Assembly (NCBI GenBank): GCA_017440935.1
Contig: JAFSAO010000022.1
Coordinates: forward strand, 186,001-250,000
Direction: 5' to 3'
Source: Opitutales bacterium
GTDB taxonomy: Bacteria > Verrucomicrobiota > Verrucomicrobiia > Opitutales > UBA953
Length of the DNA stretch: 64,000 nt
In this document: positions 978 through 15,086 of the stretch, one piece after another
Layout: every line of letters starts with the position of its first letter
How positions within the stretch are numbered: position 1 is the stretch's first letter
Made by a program: the position numbers and the translations under genes
The notes under the pieces: generated by a model
Database searches by the model: none
What the model was told of the DNA's origin: nothing
The model's input: only the letters and a program-made list of their open reading frames with translations

Positions 978-1874
978 ATGATCGAAACACGTTGCCAAAT
1001 TGAGGGTTCGTTGGCTCAGCCGCTCGAAGATTTTTTTTGCGAGCTGGTGCGTTCTCCGTGGCTGATTTTTCATGAAAAAGCCGCTCATCCGCCGGTGCTG
1101 ATGGGGTATTTCGACAGCGAATCCGAGGCGCTCGACGCATGGGCGGATTTGCGCAAGGCGTTCAAAATGCTGCCGGAGCGCCCCGACATCGGGACCCTCG
1201 AAGACCGCGATTGGAAGGAAGCCTACAAAGCGAATTTGCATCCGTGGAGCTACGGGCGTTTGCACTGGGTGCCGGATTGGCGTCGCGCCGAGTATGACGT
1301 TCCCGCCGGGGCGGCGGTGGTGTATTTTGACGCGGGCTTGGCGTTCGGGACCGGAGACCACCCGACGACGCGGCTTTGCGGGCAGCGCCTTGCAGATTTT
1401 CTCGGTGCGCTTCCCGATGCGGATGCCGTCGCGGGAACGTCCGTTATCGACGCCGGATGCGGTTCCGGAATTCTCGCTATTTCTGCGGCACAGTTGGGAT
1501 GTAAAAAAGTTTACGGTTTTGACCGCGACCCCGAAGCCGTAGAGGTTTCCGCAGAAAATCGTGCGAAAAACGATTTGCCCGAAAACGCTGTGGTATTCAC
1601 GCATGACGGAATTGAAACGGGGCTCGTTAAAGCGGGAGCGTCCGATATCGTTCTCGCCAATATTATCAGCGATGTGCTTTGCATTTATGCAGATAATCTG
1701 CTCGCTGCCGTCAACAAGGGCGGAATGCTCGCACTTAGCGGGATTCTCGCCAGTGAACAGGCGACCGTGATGCGCGTTTTTGAGTCGAAAGCGCGTGCCG
1801 TTTGGGGCGGGAACGTCCGCGTCGAAGGTCGTGTTATGGGTGAGTGGTCCGACGTGGCTCTTTTCCGCGAATAA
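978..1874 (+). CDS. prmA: Ribosomal protein L11 methyltransferase
   Basis: This SAM-dependent enzyme trimethylates ribosomal protein L11. The N-terminal half is a substrate-recognition region. It is followed by the diagnostic AFGTGDHPTT at residues 122-131, the SAM-binding motif DAGCGSG at 158-164 and LANII at 226-230. The length of 298 residues is typical of the family. The last 35 coding bases, with the stop codon, are duplicated perfectly just downstream (1904-1940), so the gene's end looks like the site of a small tandem duplication. A good intrinsic terminator follows at 1963-2006. Confidence 0.95.
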   Translation: MIETRCQIEGSLAQPLEDFFCELVRSPWLIFHEKAAHPPVLMGYFDSESEALDAWADLRKAFKMLPERPDIGTLEDRDWKEAYKANLHPWSYGRLHWVPDWRRAEYDVPAGAAVVYFDAGLAFGTGDHPTTRLCGQRLADFLGALPDADAVAGTSVIDAGCGSGILAISAAQLGCKKVYGFDRDPEAVEVSAENRAKNDLPENAVVFTHDGIETGLVKAGASDIVLANIISDVLCIYADNLLAAVNKGGMLALSGILASEQATVMRVFESKARAVWGGNVRVEGRVMGEWSDVALFRE

Positions 1875-1940
1875 GCAAATACCCGCGCCGCTTAATCCCG
1901 CAAGTGAGTGGTCCGACGTGGCTCTTTTCCGCGAATAAGC
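1840..1940 (+). repeat. Perfect 37-bp tandem duplication of the prmA 3' end
   Basis: Bases 1840-1876 (the last prmA codons, the stop and two further bases) recur without mismatch at 1904-1940, 64 bp downstream. The 27 bp between the copies is unrelated. The second copy is not translated as part of prmA. It looks like a local slippage or recombination product next to the DnaA-box cluster. Confidence 0.9.
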
Positions 1941-1962
1941 CCGGAAATTTGAGTGTTTTTCG

Positions 1963-2006
1963 AGTCCTTGGGGATATGAAAATTCCTAAGGACTTTTCTC
2001 TTTTTT
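1963..2006 (+). terminator. Intrinsic terminator after prmA
   Basis: An inverted repeat GTCCTT-x-GGGA paired with TTCC-x-AAGGAC (arms at about 1964-1974 and 1983-1993) is followed by TTTTCTCTTTTTT. It should end transcripts from purN-prmA before the DnaA-box region. Confidence 0.75.
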
Positions 2007-2081: not shown

Positions 2082-2253
2082 TTATTCACAGAGATATTTT
2101 CATTAGAATTTGCGGATAATTGTGAATAACTTAAAATATGCGTAAGTTGTTCCTAAAAAATTAACATTAAGATTCGTTATTTTAAAAGGTTTTTCGGGGT
2201 TATTCACAAAAAATCGCAAAGAAGGGCAATGTGAATAAAACTTTTGTGAATAA
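2082..2253. other. Cluster of five identical DnaA-box-like nonamers: candidate chromosomal origin
   Basis: The nonamer TTATTCACA occurs exactly at 2082-2090 and 2200-2208 on the plus strand, and as TGTGAATAA at 2121-2129, 2230-2238 and 2245-2253 on the minus strand. It fits the DnaA-box consensus TTATNCACA. Five perfect copies in 172 bp are far more than chance allows. The surroundings up to about 2330 are strongly AT-rich and could serve as an unwinding element. Together they fill most of the 518-bp gene-free stretch between prmA and the LysM gene. A DnaA-controlled promoter or a DnaA-titration site would look similar, and no dnaA, dnaN or gidA gene is adjacent in the window. Confidence 0.65.
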
Positions 2254-2392
2254 CTTGAAAATAGTTTCGACTTTTTCTCAGAAAAGTTTCACTATCTCTA
2301 TTATATGGAAAGGGAATTAAAATAGTAGCTTTTCATGAATACCCTTTTTTGATAAATCTATTTGGAAAAACAAAACACAGAGAACACACACT

Positions 2393-3298
2393 ATGAAATC
2401 GTTGCTCACAGTTTCCGGAGTCGTATTCGGACACATTTGCGTTTTCCTTCTTCTCGTTAACGGTTGTCGCGGTCCCGAAAACGGAGCCGACACATGGCAT
2501 AAAAACACGAGCGTCTATTCCGGCGGTGCACGTTCGGGCGTTCCCGCTGCGGCTGAACCCGCGCAGGCGGAACCTGCGGTCGCCGAACCGGCTTCCGCCG
2601 TTCCCGGGAAGGCGGCTCCGGCAAAATCGAGTCCCGCTCCGGTTGCGGACAAACCGGCGGAAAAGCCCGCCGCGTCTGCCGCTCCTGCCGCGGGAACGGA
2701 AAAAGTGTATGTGGTGCAAAAAGGCGATGTCCTTTCGACCATTGCCGTGCGCCATGGCGTGACGCCGAAAGAAATCGCGGACGCGAACGGAATTCGTCTC
2801 GACGGGACCATTTTTGAAGGGCAGAAGCTGAAAATTCCGGCGCCGAAGCCGAAAGCGAAGGAAGAAAAATCTGCTGTCGAAGGCGAAATTTATGTTGTGA
2901 AAAAAGGCGATGTGCTCGGCACGATTGCCCGTAAGCATAAAATATCCGTGGCTCAACTGAAAAAGGCAAATAACCTGAAGAAAGACACGATTTTTGTCGG
3001 ACAAAAATTGGTGATTCCGTCCAAGGATGCGAAGAAGGAAGAGCCCGCCAAGGCGAAAGAAGTTCCGGCGGACAAGGCATCGGAACCGACTAACGCTCCG
3101 GCGGAAGCGGCTCCGGCTTCGACCGAGCCCGCGACGGCGGCGCCGGAAAAATCCGAACCGGCGAAATCCGTTCCTCAGGAAAAATCTGCGGAACCCGTTA
3201 TTGACGAAAATTTCGGAATGCCCGAAGGCGGTTTCGTTGATTTCGGAAAAGATGAGCCGGCGACATCGGAACCCGCCACGGGAACTCCTGCAAATTAA
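2393..3298 (+). CDS. Putative lipoprotein with two LysM peptidoglycan-binding domains
   Basis: The protein probably binds peptidoglycan from a membrane anchor. Residues 1-24 form a hydrophobic signal ending in the lipobox-like LVNGC (C25), so a lipid anchor is likely though the -2 Asn is unusual. A Pro/Ala/Glu-rich linker leads to two LysM domains at about residues 105-149 (starting VYVVQKGDVLSTIA) and 167-209 (IYVVKKGDVLGTIA), each ending in the typical GQKLxIP. A second low-complexity Ala/Pro/Glu tail fills 210-301. No enzymatic domain is present. It lies 37 bp before ftsW and heads the cell-wall gene cluster, which suggests a role in division or wall organisation. The AT-rich region upstream holds its promoter. 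Confidence 0.85.
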   Translation: MKSLLTVSGVVFGHICVFLLLVNGCRGPENGADTWHKNTSVYSGGARSGVPAAAEPAQAEPAVAEPASAVPGKAAPAKSSPAPVADKPAEKPAASAAPAAGTEKVYVVQKGDVLSTIAVRHGVTPKEIADANGIRLDGTIFEGQKLKIPAPKPKAKEEKSAVEGEIYVVKKGDVLGTIARKHKISVAQLKKANNLKKDTIFVGQKLVIPSKDAKKEEPAKAKEVPADKASEPTNAPAEAAPASTEPATAAPEKSEPAKSVPQEKSAEPVIDENFGMPEGGFVDFGKDEPATSEPATGTPAN

Positions 3299-3335: not shown

Positions 3336-4622
3336 TTGATGTCTGAGCGTTCCGGCTCTTCTTCCGGCTTTCCCCGCTTCGATACAGATGCGGGGATTGT
3401 CGTTTTCTTTGTCCTCGCATTGTCGATTTTCGGCTTAGTGATTCAGACGAGTGCGGGGCAATATTTGCGTGAATCGATGCGGCTTACGCACGATCCGCTC
3501 TACACATTTCGGATGCAGTTGATATACGTCGTTCCCGCGCTGATTGCCGGATTTTTCTTTTTCCGGGTCAATTTGCAGTGGCTGCGGAAGTATGTTTGGT
3601 GGATTGTCGGTGCGGCTTGCGTTTTGCTGATTTGTGCGCGATTTGCAATCCCGGGAGTGAAATTTTTCGGATCGACGTTCCCGGGCGTGGAGGTCAACGG
3701 CTCGTGGCGGTGGATCAACCTCGGAATTTTGCGTTTACAGGCGAGCGATATCGGAAAAATTGCTCTGGTTCTGGCGCTGTCGCATTATCTCGCGGGAGCG
3801 CAGCGTTTTTTACAGCACGAAAAAATCGTTTGGTGGAAACCGAAATGTTTCGGGATTCCGACGAAAGAATTTTTTGCGGACGCGTTCTACGGATTTATTT
3901 GCCCGTGTATGATTATCGGGCTGATTGCCGGATTGGTGGCAATCGGTCCCGACCTCGGGACGATGGCACTTTGCGCGGCAGTCGGCGTCACTATGCTTTT
4001 TTTGTCGGGCGCGCGTTTGGGTTACCTCGTTCCCGTGGTCGCGGCAGGCATTTCCGCGCTTTCCGTTGTCGTTTATTTTTGGCCGAATCGTTTAAAACGT
4101 ATTTCGGCGTTTCTTGATCCGGAGGGAACCAAACTCGAGGAAGGCTACCAGCTTTGGCAGGCGCTCATCGGTTTGGGCGGCGGCGGCTGGAAAGGTGCGG
4201 GTTTGGGCGACGGCGTGCAATACCGCTACTTTTTGCCGGAGGCGCACACGGACTTCGTTTTCGCCGTGGTCGGCGAGGAACTCGGGTTTGCTCGCGCGGC
4301 GATAGTCGTGCTCGCGTTTTTGGTGCTTTTCGGCGTGGTGATCTTTCGCTTGCGGCGTATTCCGGATACGTTCCACTTCAATGTTTGTTTGGGCGCGTTG
4401 CTCTTCATCGTTTTACAGGCGTTGATTAACATGGGCGTCGTGACGGGTTTGCTTCCGACGAAAGGGATGTCGCTCCCGTTCGTCAGTTACGGCGGGAGCA
4501 ACCTTGTCGTTATGTTTTCGCTGACGGGGCTGATGCTCAACGCGATGCTTAACTGGCGCAAGAGCGTGTTCCCGTCGGTAGTAGTTCCGAGTGAGAATTT
4601 TATTTTGCAAAAGGAAATCTGA
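3336..4622 (+). CDS. ftsW: SEDS-family peptidoglycan polymerase FtsW
   Basis: This is a polytopic membrane protein of 428 residues that polymerises lipid II into septal glycan during cell division. It has about ten hydrophobic segments. The SEDS signature PTKGMSLPFVSYGGSN is at residues 374-389, and an earlier NGSWRWINLG stretch near 120 is also typical. FtsW rather than RodA is chosen because murG follows after 3 bp and murC-murB comes next, the usual arrangement in division and cell wall clusters. A partner class B penicillin-binding protein is not in the window. Confidence 0.9.
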   Translation: MMSERSGSSSGFPRFDTDAGIVVFFVLALSIFGLVIQTSAGQYLRESMRLTHDPLYTFRMQLIYVVPALIAGFFFFRVNLQWLRKYVWWIVGAACVLLICARFAIPGVKFFGSTFPGVEVNGSWRWINLGILRLQASDIGKIALVLALSHYLAGAQRFLQHEKIVWWKPKCFGIPTKEFFADAFYGFICPCMIIGLIAGLVAIGPDLGTMALCAAVGVTMLFLSGARLGYLVPVVAAGISALSVVVYFWPNRLKRISAFLDPEGTKLEEGYQLWQALIGLGGGGWKGAGLGDGVQYRYFLPEAHTDFVFAVVGEELGFARAAIVVLAFLVLFGVVIFRLRRIPDTFHFNVCLGALLFIVLQALINMGVVTGLLPTKGMSLPFVSYGGSNLVVMFSLTGLMLNAMLNWRKSVFPSVVVPSENFILQKEI

Positions 4623-4625
4623 GTT

Positions 4626-5750
4626 ATGAGAAAAACATTCGTTATTGCCTGTGGCGGGACGGGCGGGCATCTTTCTCCCGGAATTGCGCTTGCCGAGCGC
4701 CTTACGGACCTCGGCTACCGTTGTGTTCTCATCGTGAGCCGAAAGAAAATTGATGTTCGGCTTTTGGAAAAATATCCGCAGCTCGAATTCCGTCGTGCTC
4801 CCGGCGCGGGTTTGGAGTTTTCGCCGATTGGATTGTTTCGCTTCTTTTGCTCGCAGGCATCGGCAATCGGTTTTGCGTTCGCATTTCTTTTGAAAAACCG
4901 CCCGGCGGCGTATGTCAGTTTCGGCGGGTTTATGACATTGGGCATGGCGCTTGTTTGCAAATTGCTTTTCATTCCCGTGATTCTGCATGAAGCAAATCGC
5001 ATTCCGGGCAAAGCCGTGCGGTGGATTTCCCGCATTTCGACGCGTGTTTATCTGCCGCCGGGAGTGCGCGTGAAAGGGCTTTCGCCGCTCACGTTCCGTT
5101 CGGCGGGCTTTCCCGTGCGCCGTGAAATCCGCCCGCTCGACAAAGCCGCCTGCCGCACGAAGCTCGGGTTTCCCGAAACCGGAAAACTCGTGGCGATTTT
5201 CGGCGGAAGCCAAGGAGCAAAGCCGCTCAATGATTGGATTTCCTCCGCGTGGGAAAAATTTGCCGCCGCCGGTGTTTCCGTCCTTTGCGTAACGGGTCCC
5301 GGAAAAGACGCGGAATCTCCTGTTCGCGAAGCGGTTTCCGCCGCGGGAACGCCGGTCGTCGCGCGCTTTATCTCATTCTGCGATACGATGGCGGAAGCCC
5401 TTTCTGCGGCAGACGTCGTTGTCTCTCGCGCAGGCGCGGGAACGCTCGCCGAATGCATCGCGTGCCGCGTTCCCGCCGTGCTCGTTCCGTATCCGTTTGC
5501 GGCGGACGATCACCAAACGGCAAACGCAAAATATTATCAGGAAAAGGGCGCAGGCGTTTTAGTGCCGCAGAGCGAAATTGAAACCCTTACGGAAACGGTG
5601 CTCGATGTCGTTACCGACGACGAATTGTTGGCGCGTTTCCGCGACGGAACCGAAAAACTCGCTCGCGAATACGTCTGGGACAACGTCGTTTCCGACCTTG
5701 TCCAATACGCCACGAAGGAACGCAAGATCATCCGCGCGGAACAGGCGTAA
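4626..5750 (+). CDS. murG: UDP-GlcNAc:lipid I N-acetylglucosaminyltransferase MurG
   Basis: MurG adds GlcNAc to lipid I on the inner face of the membrane to make lipid II. The 374-residue length and the GT-B fold signature GGTGGH at residues 10-15 fit, as do VSFGGFMTLG near 100, IFGGSQGA near 195 and a late RAGAGTLAE motif. A start ATG at 4626 lies 3 bp after the ftsW stop, so translation is probably coupled. The substrate it makes is the one used by the FtsW encoded just upstream. Confidence 0.96.
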   Translation: MRKTFVIACGGTGGHLSPGIALAERLTDLGYRCVLIVSRKKIDVRLLEKYPQLEFRRAPGAGLEFSPIGLFRFFCSQASAIGFAFAFLLKNRPAAYVSFGGFMTLGMALVCKLLFIPVILHEANRIPGKAVRWISRISTRVYLPPGVRVKGLSPLTFRSAGFPVRREIRPLDKAACRTKLGFPETGKLVAIFGGSQGAKPLNDWISSAWEKFAAAGVSVLCVTGPGKDAESPVREAVSAAGTPVVARFISFCDTMAEALSAADVVVSRAGAGTLAECIACRVPAVLVPYPFAADDHQTANAKYYQEKGAGVLVPQSEIETLTETVLDVVTDDELLARFRDGTEKLAREYVWDNVVSDLVQYATKERKIIRAEQA

Positions 5751-5776: not shown

Positions 5777-8134
5777 ATGGACGCTTCGACAGAAAAATCC
5801 GCGTGGCTACTCGGCGTGTGCGGCATGGGTGTGGGACCTCTTGCCGTTTATATGTGCGAGGAAGGTTGGAACGTTTCCGGGTGGGACGATGCAACGGATT
5901 CGCCGATGCTGGCGTTTCTCGAAAAAGCCGGCGTGCGGCTGACGTCTTCCCCGGACTTGGATGTCGGTGTCGTCGGGCGTTCAAGCGCCGTCAAACCCGG
6001 GCATCCGCTCTACGATTTGGCGCGGGAACGCGGTATGCGCATGGTGCGCCGCGGAGAATTGCTTGCCGAACGCGTTGCCGCGAAAAAACTGATTGCCGTT
6101 TGCGGAAGCCACGGGAAGACGACGACGAGCGGAATGCTCGCGCAGTCGCTTATCGCGGCGGGAACGGACGCCGGCTACGTTCTCGGCGGGCTTTACCGGA
6201 ATCCGTCGCAGCCGCCGGCGCATTTTTCTTCAACGACGGATTGGGTCGTTGCCGAAGTTGACGAAAGCGACGGAACGATTGTGAATTTTTCTCCGGAAAT
6301 CGCCGTCGCCGTCAATCTCGATTGGGATCATCCGGACTACTATCGCAGCGAGGAGGATTTGGAAAAAACGTTTCGCGATTTGTTCCGCCGCACACGCCGT
6401 GCGATTTTTATTCCGGAAAATTCCGCGCGCTTGGAGCGCATCACGGCGGAGCTTTCCGTTCCCGTGTATAAGGTCGGGCCGAGCGGCGATTACGCGTTTC
6501 GCGTGTTGCAGGCGGGCGCTTCCGAAACGCAGGTCGAACTCGGCGGCAAATTCAACGCGGGAACGCTCACGCTTCCCGTCGCCGGGCGCTTTAATATTAT
6601 GAACGCGGTTTTGGCGCTTGCCGCGACCGCGTATGTCGGCAACGGAAAAATCGGTGTCGAGCCGCTCGGAAAATTTTCGGGAATGCGCCGCCGCCAAGAC
6701 GTGCTCTATCGCGGCGAGCGGCTGAAAGTGGTCGCCGATTACGCGCACCACCCGACGGAAATTTCCGCGCTGTTGCGCCTGTTGCGCGAAACGCATCTCG
6801 GGCGCCTCGTCGCCGTGTTTCAGCCGCACCGTTATTCCCGCACGCGGCAATACGCGGCGGAGTTTGCTCGTGCGCTTTCCGTGGCGGACGAGACGTTGCT
6901 GATGCCGGTTTATTCGGCGGGCGAAGCGCACGTTCCCGGCGGAGATGCGGCGGACATTCTCGCAAATATTCCTGCGGGAACGGGAAATATTCGCCTCTAT
7001 CCGGAAACGTCGTCGTTGCTCTCGCGTCTGCGGGACCTCGCCTCGGAATCGGCTTCCGCGGAGACGCTCGTCGCATTTGTCGGCGCGGGAGATATCGACC
7101 GCATTGCCGCGTCGGTTTTTGTTCGCGAACTTTGGTTGAGTGATGCCGCTCACGCCGGCGGGAACGCGGATGATTTTGCAAAACGCATGAAACGCCTTCT
7201 TCCGGCGGATACCGTTTTTGAAGAAGACAAATGTATCGGAAAAATGACTACGCTCGGATTGGGCGGGAACGCGCGTTACTACGCCGAACCGTCCAACGTA
7301 AACGAACTGGAAGTGCTCTTGCGCGGGGCAGCGGTGTGCGAGATTCCCGTTTTCGTGCTCGGGCGCGGGTCCAATTTGCTCGTCTCAGACGAAGGTTTTT
7401 CCGGTTTGGTGATTCGCCTCTCGCAACCGGCTTGGCGCGGCGCACGGCGTGTGCGGCGCGGGCAAAGCTCCGGCGCGGAAACGGCGGAAGACGGGCGCGA
7501 CCGCATCCGCGTCGGCGCTGGCATGAAGCTCAAAGAACTTTGCGGATTCGCGATGCGGGAAGGCTTGGGCGGATTTGAATTTCTCGAAGGCATTCCGGGA
7601 ACGCTCGGCGGCGCCTTGCGCATGAACGCGGGAGCGATGGGCGCGTCGATTTTTGATGTCGTGGAATCCGTCGAATGGATTATGCCCGACGGCACGCGCC
7701 ACGAAGCGCGGCGGGAACAGATGAATCCCGTTTATCGCGATTGTCCGGAGCTTCACGGCGCGATTGTGCTCAGCGCGGTGCTCGGCTCGAAAGAGCGGCG
7801 CACGTTGGACGAAATCAAAAAAGTAACGTCCGCTTATGCCGAAGTGCGTCGCGATTCTCAGCCGCGGGAACGCTCTGCCGGATGCACGTTTCGCAATCCC
7901 ACGGGAACGTCCGCCGGAAAGCTGATTGATCGCCTCGGGTTGAAAGGTTCGGGAATCGGCGGCGCGGAAATTTCCGAAGTTCATGCGAATTTTATTATCG
8001 CGAAAGACGGTGCGAAGGCGGCAGATGTCGTCGCGCTCGTGCGACGCGTGCACGGGATCGTCAAGGCGGAAGCCGGAGTCGACCTCGTCCCGGAAATCGT
8101 TCTTCTCGGGTCGTCTTGGGAGAAGGAACTCTAA
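5777..8134 (+). CDS. murC/murB: Fused UDP-MurNAc L-alanine ligase / UDP-GlcNAc-enolpyruvate reductase (MurC-MurB)
   Basis: One 785-residue polypeptide carries two cytosolic steps of wall precursor synthesis. Residues 1 to about 470 are MurC: the ATP loop GSHGKTTT is at 110-117, and a DYAHHPTE motif follows in the middle. From about 480 the protein is MurB: GLGGNARYYAEP near 492, GRGSNLLVSD, GIPGTLGGALRMNAGAMG near 605 and AGCTFRNP near 701, where Cys stands at the position of the catalytic Ser/Cys. A late PEI near 770 supplies the conserved Glu. MurB makes the UDP-MurNAc that MurC uses, so the fusion joins consecutive enzymes in reverse order. No frameshift separates the halves. The cluster ends here, without ddl, ftsQ, ftsA or ftsZ. 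Confidence 0.94.
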   Translation: MDASTEKSAWLLGVCGMGVGPLAVYMCEEGWNVSGWDDATDSPMLAFLEKAGVRLTSSPDLDVGVVGRSSAVKPGHPLYDLARERGMRMVRRGELLAERVAAKKLIAVCGSHGKTTTSGMLAQSLIAAGTDAGYVLGGLYRNPSQPPAHFSSTTDWVVAEVDESDGTIVNFSPEIAVAVNLDWDHPDYYRSEEDLEKTFRDLFRRTRRAIFIPENSARLERITAELSVPVYKVGPSGDYAFRVLQAGASETQVELGGKFNAGTLTLPVAGRFNIMNAVLALAATAYVGNGKIGVEPLGKFSGMRRRQDVLYRGERLKVVADYAHHPTEISALLRLLRETHLGRLVAVFQPHRYSRTRQYAAEFARALSVADETLLMPVYSAGEAHVPGGDAADILANIPAGTGNIRLYPETSSLLSRLRDLASESASAETLVAFVGAGDIDRIAASVFVRELWLSDAAHAGGNADDFAKRMKRLLPADTVFEEDKCIGKMTTLGLGGNARYYAEPSNVNELEVLLRGAAVCEIPVFVLGRGSNLLVSDEGFSGLVIRLSQPAWRGARRVRRGQSSGAETAEDGRDRIRVGAGMKLKELCGFAMREGLGGFEFLEGIPGTLGGALRMNAGAMGASIFDVVESVEWIMPDGTRHEARREQMNPVYRDCPELHGAIVLSAVLGSKERRTLDEIKKVTSAYAEVRRDSQPRERSAGCTFRNPTGTSAGKLIDRLGLKGSGIGGAEISEVHANFIIAKDGAKAADVVALVRRVHGIVKAEAGVDLVPEIVLLGSSWEKEL

Positions 8135-14342: not shown

Positions 14343-15086
14343 ATGTCTGGTCACAGTAAATGGGCAACGACGAAGCGTCACAAGGGCGCAATCGACGCTA
14401 AACGCGGCAAGATTTTCAGCAATCTCGCCAAGGAAATCACCCTCGCCGCACGCGCCGGCGGCGGAGACCCGAATGCCAACGTGCGCCTGCGCTCCGTGCT
14501 TTTGCGCGCCCGCGCGGCAAATATGCCGTCGGACAATATCGACCGCGCCATCAAGAAGGGCACGGGCGAACTTCCCGGTCTCGTCTACGAAGAAATGCTT
14601 TATGAAGGCTACGCTCCGGGCGGAGTCGGGCTCATTGTCGAAGTAACGACGGACAACAAAAACCGCGCCATCGGCGAAATTCGCAGCACGTTTACGAAAA
14701 ACGGCGGCAACCTCGCAAACTCCGGTGCGCTTACGAGCTTTTTCCAACGCAAAGGGCAAATCATCATTTCCGCAGAAGTAATCGGCGAAGACGAATTGAT
14801 GGAAATCGCCCTCGAAGCGGGAGCGGAAGACATTAAAAACAACGGCGATTTTTACGAAGTCATCACCGCCGTCAGCGATTACGATTCCGTCGCCAAAGCG
14901 CTTGAAGACAAGCAAATCAAATCCGAATCCTCCGACCTCGTTTACCTGCCGAACGTCGAAGTTCCGATTTCTGATGCCGATACGGCAAAGAAAATCCAAA
15001 AACTCATCGACGCGCTCGAAGATCTCGACGACGTGAAAGCCGTTCACTCGAACGACGACATCGCCGACGGGCTTCTCGACGGATAA
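14343..15086 (+). CDS. yebC: YebC/PmpR (TACO1) family protein
   Basis: A 247-residue cytosolic protein. The start MSGHSKWATTKRHKGAIDAK is the hallmark of the family, with ARAGGGDPNAN and YEGYAPGGVG following. Family members have been described both as DNA-binding regulators and as translation factors that help ribosomes at polyproline stretches. Length is normal. It stands alone between two repeat-rich gaps. A palindrome ending in a long T run (15105-15186) follows it and may terminate its transcript. Confidence 0.95.
   Translation: MSGHSKWATTKRHKGAIDAKRGKIFSNLAKEITLAARAGGGDPNANVRLRSVLLRARAANMPSDNIDRAIKKGTGELPGLVYEEMLYEGYAPGGVGLIVEVTTDNKNRAIGEIRSTFTKNGGNLANSGALTSFFQRKGQIIISAEVIGEDELMEIALEAGAEDIKNNGDFYEVITAVSDYDSVAKALEDKQIKSESSDLVYLPNVEVPISDADTAKKIQKLIDALEDLDDVKAVHSNDDIADGLLDG

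Follow-up and report, generated by a model that had tools for sequence, protein, structure and literature searches.

A conserved cluster of five DnaA-box-type nonamers upstream of LysM-ftsW-murG-murCB, located apart from the GC-skew breakpoint in an Opitutales genome

Five copies of the nonamer TTATTCACA lie within 172 bp of AT-rich noncoding DNA upstream of the LysM-ftsW-murG-murCB genes of an Opitutales bacterium. The cluster is conserved, together with LysM-ftsW, in four species of one genus, and its position in this genome does not match that of the GC-skew breakpoint. On balance, we favor a non-origin role for the cluster, as a DnaA-binding site that controls LysM-ftsW-murG-murCB, titrates DnaA, or does both, with oriC more likely located upstream of dnaN. 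DnaA binding, transcriptional control, and titration at the cluster, as well as the identity of oriC, are what we infer from sequence comparisons.

Structure and conservation of the box cluster

The analyzed genome (G000) has a length of 1.84 Mb in 22 contigs, and the window is a stretch of 64,000 nt from contig C20 (C20:186001-250000). The first-pass annotation had reported five mismatch-free nonamers in 172 bp, and these were recovered as five exact copies of TTATTCACA at positions 2082 to 2253 (Table 1), in the order +,-,+,-,- (two forward and three reverse). The Poisson expectation of a five-box cluster within 172 bp is ~5e-10 for the whole genome, which indicates that the cluster did not arise by chance. 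The motif TTATNCACA occurs 11 times in the window, compared with 0.59 expected from shuffles, and 43 times in the 1.84-Mb genome, with 16 of the 43 being TTATTCACA. Contig C20, representing 17% of the genome, carries 14 of the 43.

The setting given in the first-pass annotation was also correct. The cluster segment has an AT content of 73% throughout, compared with 57% in the 140 bp on its left, and it has the PrmA gene on its left and, on its right, genes for a LysM protein, FtsW, MurG, and fused MurC-MurB, as assigned with Pfam. The consensus scan for terminator-like sites found 2, compared with 0.6 in shuffles, and the promoter scan before the LysM gene found 1, compared with 1.2 in shuffles, which is chance level. 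Between the boxes, no IHF-like site scored better than shuffled sequence, although the lineage's own IHF preference may differ. At the end of prmA (window positions 1838 to 1940), approximately 38 bp are tandemly duplicated at 65-bp spacing in G000 and not in its relative G005.

Table 1. Features of the box cluster and its surroundings (positions are those of the window)
Feature	Position	Strand	Evidence and remarks
Terminator-like hairpin and T run	1962..1995	+	14 pairs, consensus scan; behind prmA, sets prmA apart from the cluster
Probable DnaA box 1, TTATTCACA	2082..2090	+	Exact match; invariant across four species
Probable DnaA box 2, TTATTCACA	2121..2129	-	Exact match; invariant across four species
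AT-rich spacer between boxes 2 and 3	2156..2189		Conserved blocks AAAAATTAACA (2156-2166) and TTATTTTAAAAGG (2177-2189), invariant in four species
Probable DnaA box 3, TTATTCACA	2200..2208	+	Exact match; invariant across four species
Probable DnaA box 4, TTATTCACA	2230..2238	-	Exact match; one variable position among four species (TTATCCACA in G003 and G007)
Probable DnaA box 5, TTATTCACA	2245..2253	-	Exact match; invariant across four species
Weak promoter-like site	2275..2304	+	Consensus scan; between box 5 and the LysM gene
LysM-repeat protein gene	2393..3298	+	Pfam LysM, 1.7e-33; first gene downstream of the cluster; neighbor in all four species (synteny)
ftsW	3336..4622	+	Pfam FTSW_RODA_SPOVE, 9.7e-75
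murG	4626..5750	+	Pfam glycosyltransferase 28 domains
murC-murB fusion	5777..8134	+	Pfam Mur ligase domains and MurB_C

The nonamer TTATTCACA is very probably the DnaA box of this lineage. The proposal had come from the first-pass annotation on the basis of a perfect consensus match, and it is now well supported by a pair of the same nonamer that is conserved ahead of dnaA throughout the order. In most of the order members examined, the two copies are ~290 bp apart, and the first is some 35 bp ahead of the start codon; the natural reading of such a conserved pair is autoregulation by DnaA and hence DnaA-box identity. In G000, three sites are located upstream of dnaA (C14:13043-13464), and three others are located around mraZ and between mraZ and rsmH (C7:57296-57966), another part of the division genes. 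The occurrence of sites at two groups of division genes would also be expected if the nonamers were bound by a different transcription factor of division genes. However, the nonamer matches the DnaA consensus perfectly and is conserved as a pair upstream of dnaA, which makes this very improbable. The dnaA-upstream pair itself (L012:13043-13464, L077-L106) is a candidate for order-wide dnaA autoregulation, yet dnaA lies off the skew-defined origin in G040, another member of the order.

The cluster was found in G000, G005, G003, and G007, four related species of gut bacteria belonging to one genus. All five boxes share the same orientation and spacing (39, 79, 30, and 15 bp) in the four species, and a core of ~183 bp can be aligned among them without gaps. 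In this core, 44 of the 45 box columns are invariant, versus 80 of the 138 spacer columns. A sequence-model search of 79 genomes of the family retrieved one strong copy each from these four species and no comparable core match from the other 75 genomes, some of which are incomplete. The right neighbor of the cluster is LysM-ftsW in all four species, whereas the left neighbor varies, being prmA in G000 and G005 and a gene that we take to be asmA-like in G003. A right flank that stays constant while the left flank changes indicates that the selected unit consists of the boxes together with LysM-ftsW. A mobile element at the cluster was also considered, and it was not supported because the core is single copy and travels with the LysM gene.

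GC skew, the dnaN locus, and rearrangements

The first-pass annotation had proposed the cluster as a candidate oriC and had named a GC-skew minimum and a read-depth peak elsewhere, with a different box cluster, as decisive against it. For skew, this is the case: the minimum was found at C20:100 kb, with a different and weaker box cluster upstream of dnaN-mnmE-mnmG. The box cluster is present as described, but its role as oriC is disfavored in G000, where the skew breakpoint is elsewhere and no step occurs at 188 kb, the position of the cluster. Skew on C20 is negative before ~100 kb and positive beyond, with a contig-wide minimum at 100.1 kb. When a breakpoint was fitted to third-position skew corrected for gene strand, with bootstrap intervals, the best position was 88 kb (bootstrap 95%, 84 to 126 kb). 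A breakpoint placed at 188 kb was 19 log-likelihood units worse than the best, and the additional skew step there was 0.013 ± 0.028, that is, none; 188 kb is excluded as the long-term origin. A breakpoint at 111 kb was 4.8 log-likelihood units under the best point, with the profile being too blunt to pin the origin exactly to dnaN. The cluster thus does not coincide with the skew minimum or replichore boundary in G000 (84 to 126 versus 188 kb), as would be expected of oriC. Gene orientation does not diverge from the cluster either, since the proportion of plus-strand genes on C20 is 29% before 103 kb, 85% from 111 to 188 kb, and 83% past 188 kb.

In the sampled stretches of the other contigs, no second clear minus-to-plus switch was observed; the skew of C18 goes from plus to minus, as at a terminus, that of C7 is mostly negative, and that of C14 is negative throughout. 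Lineage-specific C>T versus G>A changes were tried as a test of fork direction (rightward, 112 to 188 kb) and were set aside after being split by gene strand, since the asymmetry followed transcription. In G005, a second minus-to-plus switch, with no DnaA-box cluster nearby, is present at ~90 kb of contig C29 (L185), and it may stem from chimeric assembly of the contig or from an inversion that occurred recently.

The breakpoint interval contains pssA, 270 bp of noncoding DNA, dnaN, mnmE, and mnmG at C20:110.1-115.7 kb, and the dnaN-mnmE-mnmG locus is a classical oriC setting. The 270 bp upstream of dnaN have an AT content of 73% and share 73% identity with those of G003, with 8 gap columns. 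In G000, they contain one exact box and four boxes with a single mismatch; in G003 and G007, they contain no exact box. In G000, the cluster lies ~77 kb from this region, which corresponds to 4.2% of the genome. In G040, which belongs to the same order and is assembled as one contig, the skew minimum is at ~2.29 Mb, and dnaN (2.2933 Mb) is less than 5 kb away. A dnaA-linked oriC was ruled out, as dnaA is located at 0.68 Mb in G040, deep inside one arm. The region ahead of dnaN, which is AT rich and has weak boxes, is the more likely chromosome origin and is regarded here as the putative oriC. Like oriC regions linked to dnaN/gidA, the cluster has DnaA boxes grouped in conserved AT-rich intergenic DNA; in contrast to them, it lies off the skew switch of G000, and it is dnaN-mnmE-mnmG, with weak boxes of its own, that sits at the switch.

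The two congeners G003 and G007 have the cluster just ~8 kb away from both dnaN and the skew minimum, so skew cannot tell the two loci apart in these species. An assignment of the skew minimum to the cluster in G003 and G007 was revised when dnaN was found 8 kb away. The two genomes differ by an inversion whose axis, taken from the midpoints of block ends, lies at 262.9 to 267.6 kb in G003 and 67.3 kb in G007. With dnaN at 264.6 and 68.7 kb and the cluster at 256.4 and 60.6 kb in G003 and G007, respectively, the axis is nearer to dnaN, which, as a single inversion, is weak evidence in favor of dnaN as the origin. The asmA-like block found next to the cluster in G003 has its start at 103.3 kb in G000, where the cluster and LysM-ftsW are located at 188.1 kb. 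Both new junctions are also present in G005, which indicates that the separation predates the split of G000 and G005 (roughly 11% DNA divergence) and does not stem from misassembly of a single genome.

These arrangements also bear on a serious, if less likely, alternative, in which the cluster is a functional oriC that replaced the dnaN site 8 kb away in an ancestor shared by the four species, a shift too short for skew to register, and was later moved with LysM-ftsW by rearrangements to as far as 77 kb in the lineage of G000 and G005. The cluster is the best box cluster of the genome, is AT rich, and has a fixed geometry; in G003 and G007, it is within 8 kb of the skew minimum. The boxes at dnaN, by comparison, are weak, and none is exact in these two species. 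Because skew lags behind relocation, the old place would still be indicated if the origin had moved recently, and the divergence between G000 and G005 is too small for relaxation. However, neither skew nor gene orientation has a step at 188 kb, the skew minimum of G040 coincides with dnaN, the inversion axis is closer to dnaN, and the noncoding stretch before dnaN is conserved as well. It is rather doubtful that the cluster serves the clade today as its working oriC, having been carried by rearrangement from the neighborhood of dnaN to as far as 77 kb and being bordered by prmA on one flank, with skew marking the former origin. If the origin did move, the disagreement between skew and boxes would record a recent relocation of oriC that is still under way.

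A division of labor between the two loci is improbable. The region upstream of dnaN would then be the unwinding site, and the cluster would be a remote module for DnaA loading or regulation that is confined to the origin-proximal region. Both sites are conserved noncoding DNA, 8 kb apart in G003 and G007, as such a bipartite origin would suggest, but in G000 they are 77 kb apart with the cluster geometry unchanged. Origin prediction from box clusters alone would select the cluster, probably wrongly, and skew, synteny, and related genomes are needed in addition.

Comparison of G003:C10 with G000:C20 and G007:C1 revealed very heavy rearrangement around the origin within the genus, with polarity mostly kept. 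An interspersed repeat of ~110 bp with inverted-repeat character was found on C20 (L005:8143-8251; L003:12430-12539 and 14942-15048). It has several copies in G000 and tens in G005 and looks like a MITE or REP-type element.

Candidate functions of the cluster and other box groups

In the favored reading of the cluster as a non-origin DnaA site, DnaA would bind five boxes of high-affinity type, whose register is fixed, and form a defined complex there, which may control the wall and division operon LysM-ftsW-murG-murCB in step with replication. Since a site near the origin is duplicated early, the cluster could in addition bind up DnaA once initiation has taken place, in the manner of datA or a titration site. 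Several observations count against this reading. Five perfect boxes in AT-rich DNA are the usual signature of oriC, the region upstream of dnaN is poor in canonical boxes, the cluster is within 8 kb of the skew minimum in two of the species, and the promoter scan did not rise above chance.

The boxes are located upstream of LysM-ftsW and are conserved together with it, as is expected of a DnaA-regulated promoter. DnaA binds the ftsL promoter in Bacillus subtilis and the ftsZ promoter in Caulobacter (PMC8203912), which likewise have DnaA boxes upstream of wall or division genes. The cluster differs from these in having five boxes in strict register within 172 bp before LysM-ftsW-murG-murCB, where control is putative. 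In Escherichia coli, ftsZ is preceded by three DnaA boxes that have been found to play no part in its transcription (PMC8203912), so control by the cluster is put forward as a hypothesis.

With the dnaN locus taken as oriC, the cluster also consists of several boxes with fixed spacing outside oriC, as is characteristic of datA. The datA locus of E. coli has five boxes, is close to oriC, and keeps its box geometry in all strains (PMC4585315). The cluster resembles datA (and DARS1/2) in having five DnaA boxes with fixed geometry in a short noncoding segment near but outside the putative oriC. Unlike datA, it has no IHF-like site above shuffles, and its distance to the putative origin varies from 8 kb in G003 and G007 to 77 kb in G000. 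The comparison implies no homology, and datA-like ATP hydrolysis is putative here. DnaA boxes of E. coli are enriched around oriC (PMC12371093), and box density is similarly high in the part of G000 that lies no more than 5% of the genome away from its putative origin. In contrast to E. coli, the enrichment here is largely due to one compact conserved cluster, and titration by it is putative.

If the cluster is a true DnaA switch or sink before ftsW-murG-murCB, it would tie the initiation of replication to the expression of wall and division genes in Verrucomicrobiota. To our knowledge, such links between replication and division gene expression have been little studied in this phylum.

Two side observations concern other sites. 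In G007, another pair of TTATTCACA, 35 bp apart, lies inside an ORF of contig C5 (L075:7745-7788), in a region that looks like a filamentous-phage type as judged from translations with no Pfam hit. Between mraZ and rsmH in G000, there are two imperfect 30-bp repeats (TGTGAATAAC.TGTGG...TGTAA.TAA), 44 bp apart (C7:57296-57348 = L018:7296-7348). Their TGTG/TGTA steps of ~10 bp resemble MraZ operators, and the mraZ-rsmH sites could serve MraZ as well as DnaA.
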